Assembly: GCF_005576615.1 (NCBI RefSeq)
Contig: NZ_CP040332.1
Span: 1 to 64,000, forward strand
Length of the DNA: 64,000 nt
Origin: Natrinema versiforme
GTDB lineage: Archaea; Halobacteriota; Halobacteria; Halobacteriales; Natrialbaceae
Reading direction: 5' to 3'
The notes beneath the pieces are model-generated. The model saw only the letters and a program-made list of their open reading frames with translations. It was not told the origin of the DNA and ran no database searches. Both the position numbers and the translations under genes were made by a program. This document shows positions 818-7,173 of this stretch, in pieces; position 1 is the first letter of the stretch, and every line of letters begins with the position of its first letter.

Positions 818-1306
818 CTCTCCAAGGATTTCAACAGAGCCCCGTTTTCCATATCAGGAGAAGAGTCAGTTACGTATACCGCTCGAGAGTTCGCCAATCA
901 CATCAACGAGGGTGTAAGGAAAGGATACTGGACAGTTCGGAAGCGCGCTGGCGAACTGGACTTTAATCTTACCGAGAAATGCCGCGAGCTTTTCAGCGCC
1001 AACAGCAATCGGGGCCTGCAGACACTCAGCCATTGCAACGGGAGGAATGAGAAAGACGGAGATACCATCTATCTCGACGACAACTCCTGGGAAGATATCG
1101 TCTTTGGAGGCTATGCCACAGCAGGTGTCTTGGAGATCGCTACCGCAATCGCGGGAGTGATTTTTGGGTTGTCGGTCGGTCCTGTCGCGCTTGCGGCCGC
1201 AGGGGTTATCGCAGGCCTTGGAGCACTCGCACTCCAGCAAGTAAATGAAGGATGTGGTGCCAAGATCGATGCGAATAGTCTGTCCGCACAACACTGTGAC
1301 TGCTAG
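818..1306 (+). pseudogene. 5'-truncated gene for a hydrophobic, Cys-tailed bacteriocin-like protein
   Basis: An open frame of 162 codons runs from the IS5 end to TAG at 1304-1306 without any usable start codon, so the gene's front was removed by the insertion. The remaining product has a polar, Arg/Lys-rich part (VRKGYWTVRKRAGELD), then an uninterrupted Gly/Ala/Val/Ile-rich hydrophobic stretch of about 40 residues starting near GGYATAGVLEIA. It finishes with a short Cys-containing tail (EGCGAKID ... QHCDC). This composition resembles membrane-active peptides or their precursors, such as halocins and circular bacteriocins, but I recognise no specific family. A terminator-like hairpin and a membrane protein gene follow. 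Function is inferred only from composition. Confidence 0.6.
820..841. repeat. Terminal inverted repeat (upstream end) of the IS5 element
   Basis: On the minus strand this end reads GGCTCTGTTGAAATCCTTGG, which I recognise as the type of terminus seen on haloarchaeal IS5 elements. It lies about 30 bp upstream of the transposase start. The reading frame of the truncated gene to its right becomes host-like exactly here, so 841/842 is taken as the insertion boundary. The partner repeat is off the left edge and cannot be checked. Confidence 0.6.
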
Positions 1307-1357: not shown

Positions 1358-1450
1358 GTCTATTTATTTCTTTTAGATTATATTAGTATATAATTATATT
1401 AATGATGCATTCAGGCAATCTTTAGCCCCGTCAAGAATGACGTGTGTCAT

Positions 1451-2374
1451 ATGAACGATATTGAGCAGCCCACGGCCGTACCACCGGGCCAAGCGAACAC
1501 CCAGTTTGCCGTGCTCGCTGGATGCTACGTGGCTGCGCTCGTCGCGCCCACGCTGACTCTCTGGGCCGTCAAGTACGTGCAGATCCGCAGTCGCCTCCTG
1601 GCGCTCGGTGTGATGGGCGTAGTCGCTATCGTGGTCGGTGCTTCGACAGTGTCCGTCGCAGGGGACAACGAGGGACTCCTCTCGTGGCTGAACACGGGAT
1701 GGCTATCGTGGCTGTTCCCGGTTGCTGGGATCCTCCCGGTGATCGCCTACCATTTCAGTCTTATCGAGGTGTTCGCGACGTTGTTCGTCGAAGGGGCGTC
1801 GATCCCGGTCACGAGTCTCGTGGCGTCGATCGCGTTCGTCCTCGGGATCGTTGCAGCTTTCGTCGGTGAAATAGCCCTGCGTGCTGCCCGCAACCAGATC
1901 GCTTGCTCCGCCACGAGGGCCGAGGATCTGACGATCAAGTGGTCCGCCAAGTGGCCACGGTCGCACAAGCTGAATATCTTAGTGATCGTCGTACTCGCGG
2001 GTATCGGTCTCCTCGCGGTCCTCGCAGTCACGGTAGCGCCTGTATCGGTCGTATTTACTGGCCCCTTCGTCTTGGTACTCGTTCTTGTCACGAGGATGTT
2101 CCTCTCCGAACGAGAGTTCGAGCTGACTCTGGCCGGACTATCATACGCCCGGAGTGGAACACTTTATACTCACCGCCAGTTCCTCCCGTGGTCGGAGATC
2201 GAATCGTTCACGCTCTCCGACGATGCCGTCATACTCCATCGAGAGGGGCTGCTGCCCAGTATCCGGTTCTCACGGTCCGACATCCGGCCGGACGAGGAAG
2301 AGATTCTCGCCGCCCTCGAAGAGCATGTCAGTAGCAATCCCGATAGTTCACCGCAAGGCAATCGTCGATTCTGA
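1451..2374 (+). CDS. Multi-pass membrane protein with C-terminal PH-like domain
   Basis: The protein has about 307 residues. The first 220 contain five or six hydrophobic segments (for example ALGVMGVVAIVVGAS and LNILVIVVLAGIGLLAVLAV). The last 90 are soluble and resemble the PH-like domains of bacterial and archaeal membrane proteins (FELTLAGLSYARSG ... FLPWSEIESFTL). I chose ATG 1451; a GTG three codons upstream (1442) is the alternative. It lies 145 bp downstream of the truncated hydrophobic peptide gene on the same strand, so an immunity or export role for that peptide is possible but unproven. No catalytic motif is visible. Confidence 0.75.
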   Translation: MNDIEQPTAVPPGQANTQFAVLAGCYVAALVAPTLTLWAVKYVQIRSRLLALGVMGVVAIVVGASTVSVAGDNEGLLSWLNTGWLSWLFPVAGILPVIAYHFSLIEVFATLFVEGASIPVTSLVASIAFVLGIVAAFVGEIALRAARNQIACSATRAEDLTIKWSAKWPRSHKLNILVIVVLAGIGLLAVLAVTVAPVSVVFTGPFVLVLVLVTRMFLSEREFELTLAGLSYARSGTLYTHRQFLPWSEIESFTLSDDAVILHREGLLPSIRFSRSDIRPDEEEILAALEEHVSSNPDSSPQGNRRF

Positions 2375-2575: not shown

Positions 2576-2719
2576 ATGTCAGAGTCTGACCACACCACGG
2601 CTGGCACATCAACCAAGACGGTGACTCGGACGATCCGGTTCCGTCTCGAAACGAACTCGTCCGGACTGGCATCGAGGACTTTCAAGAGATGGCCCGGTTC
2701 ATACATCGTGTTCAGATAA
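2576..2719 (+). pseudogene. N-terminal fragment, probably of a TnpB-type protein
   Basis: The fragment starts with a short acidic leader followed by TKTVTRTIRFRLET, which resembles the beginning of haloarchaeal IS200/IS605 TnpB proteins. After about 30 codons the likely frame shifts by one base: ELVRTGIEDFQEMARFI is read in the neighbouring frame. The homology then stops where the 3' end of an IS6 transposase begins, near 2705. This looks like a TnpB gene cut by an IS6 insertion or deletion. The family call is from memory of related leaders and is tentative. Confidence 0.35.
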
Positions 2720-3346
2720 GCTGGTTCCATGCGAAGGCGAACGATCTGAGCCACTGATCAGCAGTTTCTGCCTGAGCGTTGCTAAAGCAGTTTGAGAATG
2801 AGGAGGCTCGACATTTTATCTCACGAAATACATGTTCGACACTGTTCCGATTTCCATGTCGTTCGTATCTGAAATCGAGGCCATGCCGTTGACAGGCATA
2901 GTTCAGCGCCTTGTCGCCATCGACGAAAAACACGGCATCATTGACGTTATGCTTCTCGAACAATTCCGTGAAGAACGAACTTGCACGACTTTGGTTCTAG
3001 CCGGCTCAAGCTTTGTATGGAGTAATTCGTTTGACTCTGGATCGACGGCAGCGTACAGCCAATACTGTTCATTGCCGAGTCGGATCACCGTCTCGTCTAC
3101 TGCGACGTGATCCGGATTTCGACAGGCGGTAGGCTGTAGATCTGCCTTGTGAACCCAGGTATGAACGGTCGATCGAGTCCGTTCAACACCGAACCTCTCG
3201 AGAACTCTAACAGTATTCAAAAGCGAGAGTCCGGCAAGATGGAGCTGAATACTGAGCTTCATCAACAGTCGCGGTGTTGCTTCGCGCTCCACAAAATCCA
3301 AGTCGATCTGGCCGATACTAGAGTTGAGACGTGCGTTTTCGGGCAT
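2712..3346 (-). pseudogene. IS6-family transposase with one frameshift
   Basis: Read from ATG 3346, the first part has the haloarchaeal IS6 N-terminus (MPENARLNSS ... DLDFVEREATP), the helix-turn-helix region, WVHKADLQP and the first catalytic Asp in DHVAVDETVIRL, then AAVDPESNELLHTKLEP. Near 2955 the frame changes. The continuation in the next frame has FFVDGDKALNYACQRHGLDF (second Asp), RHGNRNSVEHVFREIK (catalytic Glu) and the usual C-terminus WLRSFAFAWNQLI, ending at 2712. All catalytic residues survive, so the inactivation is recent. The expected right terminal repeat after the stop is not intact. Confidence 0.9.
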
Positions 3347-3490
3347 GAACCACTCAGAAAACGCTACGTCTCACTCCTTCAACCTTCTCTGAACACCACC
3401 CCGCTCACGCTCCCAACATTCATCAAATTCCGCCGCGTAACACTCGCTGAGTAGGTCTGCGAGCATCATCCTAAATTCACTCCACGACCT

Positions 3491-3526
3491 GCTCGCTTCT
3501 CAAACCGCGCTAACTAGACGGTGCCG
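3491..3526 (-). repeat. IS6-type terminal repeat, diverged copy
   Basis: On the minus strand this stretch begins GGCACCGTCTAGTTAGCGCG and continues into a GTTTGAGAAGCGAGCAGG-like segment. It matches the two better preserved ends at 3822-3847 and 6377-6402 with several differences. Its orientation fits the upstream end of the minus-strand transposase at 2712-3346, with about 145 bp between the repeat and the ATG. Confidence 0.6.
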
Positions 3527-3639
3527 TTTGAGAACAGTGATCACGAGGTAGTACTGTGTTATTCATACAACTTACCGAAGTAAGACATCTAAGTATCTTA
3601 GACCTCCTCTCCACTCAACCGAAAATTTCGGTCGGTCTA

Positions 3640-3780
3640 CCCACGGTACTGATCCGGCGGCTGAGTTTCTGCATCGGCACCGTGAGAAACACAATCTCTC
3701 GGATGCTGAGTTTCTTGTCGATCAATTATCACAGACCGCATCAAGCGCTCGACGGAAACACGCCAGCTGAGGAGGTTTAG
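3640..3780 (+). pseudogene. Transposase remnant with internal deletion
   Basis: One frame reads HGTDPAAEFLHRHREK, then LSDAEFLVD, the region of the second catalytic Asp in a haloarchaeal IS6-like transposase. The next recognisable piece is the extreme C-terminus, NYHRPHQALDGNTPAEEV before TAG, in a different frame. The 80 or so residues normally between them, including the catalytic Glu, are missing. The stop is immediately followed by AACTAGACAGTGC, which matches the terminal repeat type of these elements. The same C-terminus occurs at 18745-18850. Confidence 0.65.
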
Positions 3781-3821
3781 AACTAGACAGTGCTCCTCTG
3801 GACAAGATTTCTCACAACCTG

Positions 3822-3847
3822 CTCGTTTTTCAAACTGGCTCAACTAG
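3822..3847 (-). repeat. 26-bp inverted repeat, left copy
   Basis: The reverse complement of this stretch is identical to 6377-6402 at 25 of 26 positions; the one difference is A versus G after GTTTGA. It is an IS6-type element end (CTAGTTGAGCCAGTTTGA core). Its orientation means the element body lay to the left, so the 2.5 kb up to the right copy lies between two outward-extending element ends. Confidence 0.8.
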
Positions 3848-3897
3848 AAGTTCGAAAGTCTATTTTTATCTCCATAATGATGATGGATATAGAAACC

Positions 3898-4107: not shown

Positions 4108-4257
4108 TAGGGATGGAGGACTGTCAACGTTAGTTGTGGAGAGTGGCGAAGACTCTGAGATCGACTCCGTAGAATGTGTTAAGTTTTTATACGGTACTCA
4201 AGGTAGTATGCAGATAAGGTTGAAGGAGTGAGAAGCTTGATATTTTCAAACTGAGCT

Positions 4258-4910
4258 ATGCTCGAAAACGCATTCCTCACACCCGTTATCAGTTAACTCA
4301 ACTTGGCTTTTGTGGGACGTAAAGCAACACCACAACTGTTGATGAGGCTCAGTATTTCGATCGAACTTACTGAACTCTTGCTTTTGAACACTGTTAGAAA
4401 TACTTATATGTACGGTGTTGAATAGGCTCAATCGACTGTTCATAACTGGGTTCACAGGGCCGGTCTCCAGTTCAACACCTATCGAAATTCGATCACGTCG
4501 CGGTTGACGAGACAGTGATCCGGCTCGGCGATGAGCAATATTGGCTGTACGCCGCTGTCGAACCAGATTCAAACGAATTACTCCATACAAAACTCAAGTC
4601 GACTCGAAACGAGGTTATCGTAAGTACGCTCTTCACGGAATTACGCAAAAAACACATAACGCCGTCTTTCTTGTCAATTGAGACGATTCACTGGACTATG
4701 CCTGTCACCGACATGGCCTCAATTCCAGATACAAACGACATGAGAATTCAAACATCATTGAACTTGCTTTTCGGGAGATAAAACGTCGAACCTCCCTTTC
4801 TCAACTTGCGCAGAAACTGCTGATCAGTGACTCAGATTGTTCGTCTTCGCATAGAACTAGCTTATCTAGACACGATGCGTTCATATCTGAACAGGCCGAC
4901 CAGACATAGA
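4258..4910 (+). pseudogene. Heavily decayed IS6-family transposase
   Basis: Pieces of the IS6 transposase can be followed in order across several frames: MLENAFLTP, VGRKATPQLLMRLS, STVHNWVHRAGLQFN, DHVAVDETVIRLGDEQYWLY (first catalytic Asp), ELLHTKLKSTR, then AYLDT-like DNA corresponding to the WLRSFAFAWNQLI tail but with stop codons in it. A degenerate terminal repeat (GACCAGACA) lies near 4900. There are at least four frameshifts or stops, so this is an old copy compared with the one at 2712-3346. Confidence 0.8.
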
Positions 4911-5099: not shown

Positions 5100-5360
5100 T
5101 CAGCATGTAGGATTCCACCAGCTACAGTCATCACAATCACTACAAGGTGCTGATGCAATCGGGAGATCGTTATCCCGCATATCACAGCCCCCACAAACAT
5201 TCTCCGGATCAGTCACAGTCTCATTCTGGATGATAGCACAAATAATTCCGATCGCGACCGGACAGGCAAGTGGACCAACACCAGTCGAGGATGTGATGGC
5301 TGCACAAGCAACAGTTCCCTCTAGTGCACATGAACCTGTATTAAGAATATAAGTTACCAT
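5100..5360 (-). CDS. Halocin C8-like cysteine-rich peptide (N-terminus unresolved)
   Basis: The 86-codon frame from ATG 5360 is extremely Cys-rich and hydrophobic. The same frame stays open upstream to a TGA at 5439-5441 and includes DGWGCKACKDM, but has no start codon there. With that extension there are 12 cysteines: GCKAC, then NTGSCALEGTVACAA, a hydrophobic PLACPVAIGIICAII segment, and VCGGCD and CSDCDDC near the end. The opening GC-x-AC followed by alternating Cys and Ala/Gly-rich hydrophobic runs resembles the mature peptide of halocin C8, which is cut from the C-terminus of a long precursor. The precursor's Tat leader and immunity part are not visible here. The gene may be the surviving 3' part of a halocin gene. 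Confidence 0.6.
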   Translation of the reverse strand: MVTYILNTGSCALEGTVACAAITSSTGVGPLACPVAIGIICAIIQNETVTDPENVCGGCDMRDNDLPIASAPCSDCDDCSWWNPTC

Positions 5361-5536
5361 GTCCTTACATGCTTTACAACCCCAGCCATCACCTGTTGAT
5401 GCTGGTCGTGCACCAGTTGTTGATAGCTTCGCGACTATTCATGCCGGGGATTCCCATACCGTGTTGGGATAGCAGGACTGGATGATCAGTAGATAACATA
5501 GCCGAACTTATGTTCTTTCAATATAAACTGCTAGCA

Positions 5537-6196
5537 ATGAAACTCTTAGATAATAAGAAGAGAGCTCGAATCTTCTATAAGTACCTCTCGAAAGTATACG
5601 ATCACGTGAATAAGGTGAATTGGAACGACGAGATGCGTTCGGAAGCGCTCGAGTGGCTAGACTTTGGTGACAACGATAAAGCACTCGATGTCGGATGTGG
5701 AACTGGTTTTGGCACTGCTGGATTACTGGACCATGCCGAAGACGTCTATGCGCTTGACCAAAGCATCCACCAGATGGAGAAAGCTTTTGAGAAGTTCGGA
5801 AAGCATGACCAAGTGAACTTCCACAGGGGCGACGCTGAACGGCTTCCCTTCGCGGACAACACCTTTGATATCGTCTGGTCTTCTGGATCGATCGAATACT
5901 GGCCACACCCAGTGCAAGGTCTCAAAGAAATACGCCGCGTGACGAAACCAGGCGGGCAGGTGCTTGTCATCGGGCCAGACTATCCGTCCAATCCGATCTT
6001 GAAACGTGTTGCTGACGCTATTATGCTGTTTTATGATACGGACAAAGCCGACCAAATGTTCACCCAGGCCGGCTATACAACGTTCCAACACCATATTCAG
6101 CAAGCTACATCTCGAAGCCCTCGCGCGATCACGACCGTTGCACGTGTGCCTGCTGAAAAGAGACAAACCGACGAGTCCATCACTGCCTCGCCATAA
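5537..6196 (+). CDS. Class I SAM-dependent methyltransferase (quinone-methyltransferase-like)
   Basis: A 219-residue protein has the Rossmann SAM motif LDVGCGTGFGT (around residue 55), the acidic loop YALDQSIHQM, the GDAERLPFADNTFD motif and the IRRVTKPGGQVLVIGP motif typical of MenG/UbiE-like enzymes. Proteins of this type methylate prenylated quinone precursors, but other small-molecule acceptors are possible. ATG 5537 (MKLLDNKKRARIFYKYLSKV) is preferred over the in-frame ATG at 5510 because family members begin near this point. It lies head-to-head with the Cys-rich peptide gene inside the bracketed 2.5 kb stretch. Confidence 0.8.
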   Translation: MKLLDNKKRARIFYKYLSKVYDHVNKVNWNDEMRSEALEWLDFGDNDKALDVGCGTGFGTAGLLDHAEDVYALDQSIHQMEKAFEKFGKHDQVNFHRGDAERLPFADNTFDIVWSSGSIEYWPHPVQGLKEIRRVTKPGGQVLVIGPDYPSNPILKRVADAIMLFYDTDKADQMFTQAGYTTFQHHIQQATSRSPRAITTVARVPAEKRQTDESITASP

Positions 6197-6376
6197 TCAT
6201 CGCCGAGTGGATTGCTTGCTTTCAGCACCCGCAGCAGTCGAACGTCACCTGTCTTGACGTGCCGCATCCAACCACAACCGTTCCAACTGTACGTCACGAG
6301 ACCCGTGCTTGCTTGATTCTTGGCTCGACAGAATGTTGCGTGATACTAAGTAACAGATCAGTTGAATAGATACTGT

Positions 6377-6402
6377 CTAGTTGAGCCAGTTTGAGAAACG
6401 AG
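6377..6402 (+). repeat. 26-bp inverted repeat, right copy
   Basis: This copy (CTAGTTGAGCCAGTTTGA core followed by GAAACGAG) is the partner of 3822-3847. It is preceded by TACTGT, matching the GGCACTGT outer end of these IS6-type elements. No transposase follows it; the element body to the right has been lost. The 6197-6645 stretch holds nothing else I recognise. Confidence 0.75.
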
Positions 6403-6645
6403 ACACGTTCCGGGTGAAGCCAACGCAACAACTGTTAACAGGCTTACAGACTGGCGAGAGAGCTACCAGCTGTCAGTAGTATTGTCTGTTGTTAGTTGCC
6501 TATCGCAGTGTAATTTTGCCAGAATATGTCGTGAACGTCACCGGGAATACAGAAGAAGTGACACGTACACTCAGTCTCACCTACTCAGGAAACTATTCCC
6601 CGAAACAAGAATTATATCGGTAGCCACACAAGATCGAGTATAGCC

Positions 6646-7173
6646 AATACAGAGCCTCCAGATGATCCCCCATCCTTTGAGGATGCGTTTCGTGACGATG
6701 ACGTTGAACAGCGCATCTGTGGAACAATTCTTCAGACTCGCGAGCCTGCAACAGCGAGCGCTATCGCAGAGCAAGCCGAGTGCGACCCAAAGACAGCTCG
6801 AAAATATCTAGGCTGGTTCAGCGACCTCGGAATCGTCACGCGCCACGATGGCCATCCGACGACCTACGAGCGCAATGATGCATATTTCCAGTGGCGGCGC
6901 ATCAACCAACTTGCTGCCGAGCACACCATCGACGAACTCCAAGAGCACGTCCGTACCCTTACGACACGGATTACCGAGTACGAAAAAACGTACGATGCCA
7001 CAACGCCGGCAGCCGTCGACGCCGTCAATGCTGCAGAGACGAGCGACGAACGAACAATCGATGATGTGTATAGCGACCTTGCCGACTGGGCGACCGCTCG
7101 AGATGAGCGCAAGCGCTACGAACGCGCCCGTCAGCAACGTGCTGGCGCTGAGACCGACCACGCTTCCGGGTAA
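6646..7173 (+). CDS. Winged-HTH regulator, candidate antitoxin; standard start codon missing
   Basis: The frame encodes about 170 residues beginning TEPPDDPPSFEDAFRDDDVE, then a winged helix-turn-helix (TASAIAEQAECDPKTARKYL ... LGIVTRHDG) and a charged helical C-terminus (ELQEHVRTLTTRITEYEK). Related haloarchaeal proteins, as I recall them, start MTEPPDDPP. Here the codon before Thr is AAT, and no ATG, GTG or TTG exists in frame back to the TGA near 6560. The start has therefore been lost or is non-canonical. The next gene begins 8 bp after the stop, so the two form an operon. The arrangement resembles TumA/TumE-type toxin-antitoxin pairs. Confidence 0.7.
   Translation, partial: NTEPPDDPPSFEDAFRDDDVEQRICGTILQTREPATASAIAEQAECDPKTARKYLGWFSDLGIVTRHDGHPTTYERNDAYFQWRRINQLAAEHTIDELQEHVRTLTTRITEYEKTYDATTPAAVDAVNAAETSDERTIDDVYSDLADWATARDERKRYERARQQRAGAETDHASG

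Follow-up and report, generated by a model that had tools for sequence, protein, structure and literature searches.

A probable 5´-truncated remnant of a halocin C8-type gene in Natrinema versiforme, and a divergent eight-cysteine branch of halocin C8-like modules

The cysteine-rich frame and its surroundings

We analyzed a 64-kb window, the whole stretch of N. versiforme DNA from position 1 to 64,000 of contig NZ_CP040332.1, around a minus-strand frame that a sequence-only reading had likened to the mature peptide of halocin C8 (features in Table 1). That reading had described a GC-x-AC start and ten more cysteines, and both were recovered on this frame, with GCKAC and ten further residues making 12 cysteines in all. 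It had also proposed that the homologous part continues upstream of the first ATG without a start codon; indeed, no ATG, GTG or TTG occurs among codons 1-26, and C1 and C2 are codons 21 and 24. The window has 906 open frames with 40 codons or more, and this one has the highest cysteine content of them (12 in 95 residues; the next has 9). The frame is free of internal stops. It carries every cysteine expected in its branch and, beyond these, an even number of extras, and its cysteine-rich tail extends ~25-30 residues beyond the ends of the nearest relatives in alignments. Structure prediction from the lone sequence was of poor quality, giving a mean pLDDT of 51.6, with helices at 21-34, 41-52 and 58-73.

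Table 1. Positions of features at and near the peptide locus (window coordinates)
Feature	Position	Strand	Remarks
Peptide frame, 112 codons plus stop	5100..5438	minus	no start codon; codons 5438-5103, stop 5102-5100
Parts of the peptide frame		minus	linker, codons 1-18, then 12-cysteine mature module of divergent halocin C8 type
In-frame TGA	5439..5441	minus	closes the peptide frame upstream
First in-frame ATG	5358..5360	minus	codon 27; a start here would lose C1 and C2
Cysteine-rich tail	5103..5186	minus	second Cys of CGGC, then CSDCDDC...C; from alignments
36-codon frame (MLSTDHPVLLSQHGMGIPGMNSREAINNW...)	5389..5499	minus	offset by one base from the peptide frame
Class I methyltransferase paralogue (MKLLDNKK...)	5538..6196	plus	intact; divergent from the peptide frame
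IS6/IS240-like element	4211..4877	plus	decayed; ~220 bp downstream of the peptide stop
Second 5´-truncated gene	866..1303	plus	final ~150 residues of a member of an unrelated Tat precursor family

Decayed insertion sequences flank the locus (2704-3400, about 3400-3848 and 4211-4877), and relatives of the IS6/IS240-like element occur at 2704-3400 and at other sites in the genome. Exactly at the 5´ break of the peptide frame, we found no end of an insertion sequence. We also noted a shrunken insertion-sequence copy (3400-3848) and, from the same element, a solitary 31-bp end (6372-6402); the two are inverted relative to each other and bracket the peptide gene and the methyltransferase gene. The methyltransferase paralogue, which has homologues in 121 of the 125 genomes of the family, is separated from the peptide frame by ~100 bp.

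A second beheaded gene lies at the start of the window, its front missing next to a transposase gene (82-789). Full members of its family have ~243 residues, a twin-arginine leader and the ending CGIKI...QHCDC. An intact membrane protein gene (1442-2374, plus strand) follows it, a neighbor that is kept in four of the five homologous loci checked; the pair of Tat precursor and membrane gene is conserved in loci L156-L159. Neither family had a Pfam or NCBIfam match. The two genes are a candidate for an unnamed archaeocin with its immunity gene, the archaeocin being beheaded here. With two exported-peptide genes beheaded inside 4.5 kb, the region fits the picture of a decaying island.

Homology to halocin C8 and the eight-cysteine branch

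The halocin C8 model TIGR04449 aligned with the peptide frame over positions 1-64 of 69 at 13.1 bits (E 0.15; 13.2 bits in a genome search), short of its curated cut-off of 24 bits. We also built profiles from ~30 halocin C8-like domains, drawn from those gathered in 391 genomes of the class. Against such a profile the frame scored 36.2 bits, whereas 1000 shuffles that preserved the cysteine positions reached at most 16.6; after removal of three query-derived sequences, the score was 19.0 bits against a shuffle maximum of 8.9. Ranked by halocin C8-type profile, the frame came first in the window at 19.0 bits, followed by a frame at 10.9. Since it is the best of the 906 frames and exceeds every shuffle, the similarity is not due to chance, and the frame is homologous to the halocin C8 mature module. 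The earlier statement that it is much like this peptide is thus borne out, with TIGR04449 itself remaining below cut-off; the profile similarity whose absence was to count against the proposal was found.

Pfam gave a weak BFD-like match alone (E 0.33) and Rfam no match. No relative was recovered when genome contigs, plasmids and phages were scanned with the single protein, or when viral contigs were scanned with alignments, and DNA of the peptide region was found in no other genome of the family.

Comparison with halocin C8 itself (the HalC8/HalI single-gene precursor) showed an alignable mature module with a CxxC start, and Gly/Ala hydrophobic helices between the cysteines in both. The suggested comparison of cysteine spacing agreed in part: C1, C2, C4-C7 and C9 occur in order, whereas C3 and C8 of the ten-cysteine pattern are absent and an extra cysteine-rich tail is present. 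MAFFT aligned one of the fragment's later cysteines with C8, an assignment we rejected, as closer alignments and a profile alignment show C8 to be absent; the position of C10 within the tail is ambiguous. In further contrast to halocin C8, the window copy lacks a Tat signal, a propeptide/immunity part and a start codon.

The nearest relatives, with 45% identity over 66 residues, are encoded by Halorussus aquaticus (NZ_CP100400.1) and H. ruber (NZ_ML219768.1). Both are complete ~270-residue precursors with an SRRKCLKG twin-arginine leader, and they share with the window copy the loss of C3 and C8 and the stretches CK.MVT and TGVGPLAC. When they were compared with the window, the match (E about 5e-14) was confined to precursor residues 204-268. 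Unlike these whole Tat precursors, which end in ...CEKVCAC, the window copy is the last part alone, with a longer tail.

The lack of C3 and C8 with retention of the other core cysteines places the frame in what we term the eight-cysteine branch of halocin C8-like modules. Across up to 392 genomes, profile searches recovered shorter Tat precursors of this branch (275 and 317 codons; L104, L097) and longer ones (673-737 codons; L083, L084, L099, L100, L114, L117). In intact members the module is always C-terminal, in frames of 270-740 codons, and the 112-codon window frame is the sole member found without a front. The long precursors L083, L084, L114, L115 and L117, which belong to the same branch as the window copy, differ from it in having ~600 residues before the module, none of which occurs in the window or genome. 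As a separate observation, L083, L084, L114, L115, L117 and L118, which occur in several families, are Tat precursors of ~670-700 codons that combine a conserved ~600-residue front with an eight-cysteine halocin C8-like end.

Halocin C8 production and immunity are attributed to one gene (Sun et al., 2005; PMID 15978083, as cited in PMC12893001), and PMC12893001 describes release of the bioactive C-terminal fragment through cleavage by a protease that it calls unidentified. By analogy, and judging from their layout, the intact relatives would be exported via Tat as folded precursors, from which a protease would free the C-terminal peptide; the freed peptide, held by nested disulfides, would then kill related archaea.

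The missing front and how to read the fragment

The sequence-only reading had found no precursor at this locus, and neither did we. When precursors were compared with the window, only the mature region at 5.1-5.4 kb on the minus strand matched, the rest being weak and scattered. A long precursor also gave a tblastn match at 6613-7095 (E 0.016), which we set aside as chance, as it had a low score and the wrong strand and place for a front. Across the genome (4.67 Mb, five contigs), there was no second TIGR04449 match and no match to a precursor front (second match, E 0.7), and the methyltransferase gene leaves no room for one beside the peptide frame. A search for Tat leader pieces near 5440-5510 had been suggested; the 36-codon frame that overlaps this stretch has no hydrophobic or twin-arginine stretch and is probably non-coding.

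All intact relatives found carry the module at the end of an open frame of 250-740 residues, and most of these frames have a recognizable twin-arginine leader. Four further domains of 64 distinct ones (L048, L106, L108, L109) have frames no longer than about 200 codons, and comparison with full-length precursors shows their fronts to be missing or frameshifted, L048 being near a contig end. Because these other short copies are truncated or frameshifted, headless copies are sporadic and form no conserved class.

The earlier choice had been between a broken halocin gene and a differently organized one with an unusual start. Since the intact relatives all carry a front and none is found in the window or genome, we favor a broken gene that has lost its front; the unusual start gained no positive support. 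The frame is thus likely to be a recent 5´-truncated remnant of a halocin C8-type gene and not a new gene organization, a reading further supported by the decayed insertion sequences on both sides and by the second beheaded precursor gene beside a transposase. Counted against it are the absence of internal stops and the complete cysteines, where other broken copies have shed single cysteines (L106, L133); with the frame intact and its cysteine set complete, any decay would be recent.

The same intact frame and cysteine set would be expected of a working stand-alone gene, translated from a non-standard start (ATA at 5438 or similar) or from ATG 5499 or 5442 with a +1 frameshift, its peptide acting inside the cell or leaving by another export route. 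A TATA-like box (TTTATAT) precedes ATG 5499 by 28 bases on the minus strand, and the frame opened there overlaps the peptide frame; however, this box falls within the 100-bp spacer common to the divergent methyltransferase gene. The short leader has neither a hydrophobic nor a twin-arginine stretch, a peptide with six possible disulfides needs export, and no conserved headless relative was found among about 450 distinct genomes of the class. We regard such a gene as unlikely, and a precursor-free stand-alone 12-cysteine halocin C8-type gene, read from a non-standard codon or by frameshifting from the short leader, as quite improbable. There is a small chance of a product from the ATG 5499 frame, which without a signal could hardly mature.

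The break falls in the linker adjoining the mature module, which is complete and undamaged, as would also be seen in a silent C-terminal cassette for recombination onto a full-length precursor, comparable to the orphan tips of polymorphic toxins. We give this reading very little credence, as the genome has neither a full-length halocin C8-type precursor to serve as recipient nor a repeat of the linker DNA. An intact gene masked by assembly or sequencing error is scarcely credible: long-read assemblies often contain one-base errors, and an in-frame stop at 5441 closes the peptide frame, but no upstream frame has precursor similarity, and with the conserved methyltransferase gene only ~100 bp upstream, a reading error hides no precursor and a base-level correction could not restore the at least 170 missing residues. 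A large misassembly is possible.

For the truncated remnant, we envisage that the 3´ end of a precursor gene with eight core cysteines would be what survives. Its ancestor may have come on the insertion sequence-rich island of the 414-kb contig, after which a DNA rearrangement, with its break in the linker immediately before the mature peptide, would have removed the promoter, the Tat signal and the whole propeptide/immunity part. The early steps of export and maturation would then be impossible, leaving a presumably silent, recently formed fragment, though the fragment may have some function.

Paired cysteine losses and predicted disulfides

We asked which cysteines are lost together among 60 distinct domains (L031-L060, L104, L106-L143, with copies judged broken left out; L133 was set aside post hoc, after its lone loss had been seen). 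C4 and C7 occurred together in 47 and were jointly missing from 13, without exception. For C3 and C8, 42 domains had both and 13 had neither, and five were scored as lacking C8 alone; these sequence counts do not represent independent events. A MAFFT alignment of 64 domains, broken copies included, gave 52 with both C3 and C8, 11 with neither and one exception. Both associations held upon thinning to 45% identity (C3-C8, p about 6e-5; C4-C7, p about 5e-8), and C1-C10 covariation was weaker (p about 1e-3). Lone losses occurred in broken-looking copies, C4 only in L106 and C6 only in L133, a Met-less frame.

The paired losses imply predicted nested disulfides C3-C8 and C4-C7, and C1 probably pairs with C10; with these pairs nested, C2-C9 and C5-C6 would follow by elimination. 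A text search of the open-access literature found no disulfide assignment for halocin C8. With C3 and C8 jointly missing and its other core cysteines retained, the window module is by this measure undamaged.

The fragment itself is most likely an ordinary gene wreck. It led, however, to a divergent eight-cysteine halocin C8-like branch whose precursor frames range from ~270 to ~740 codons. It also led to a disulfide map, open to testing, for halocin C8 as a classic archaeal antimicrobial: C1-C10, C3-C8 and C4-C7, then C2-C9 and C5-C6. Orphaned halocin ends also call for caution in annotation, as a short cysteine-rich frame is not always a peptide gene.
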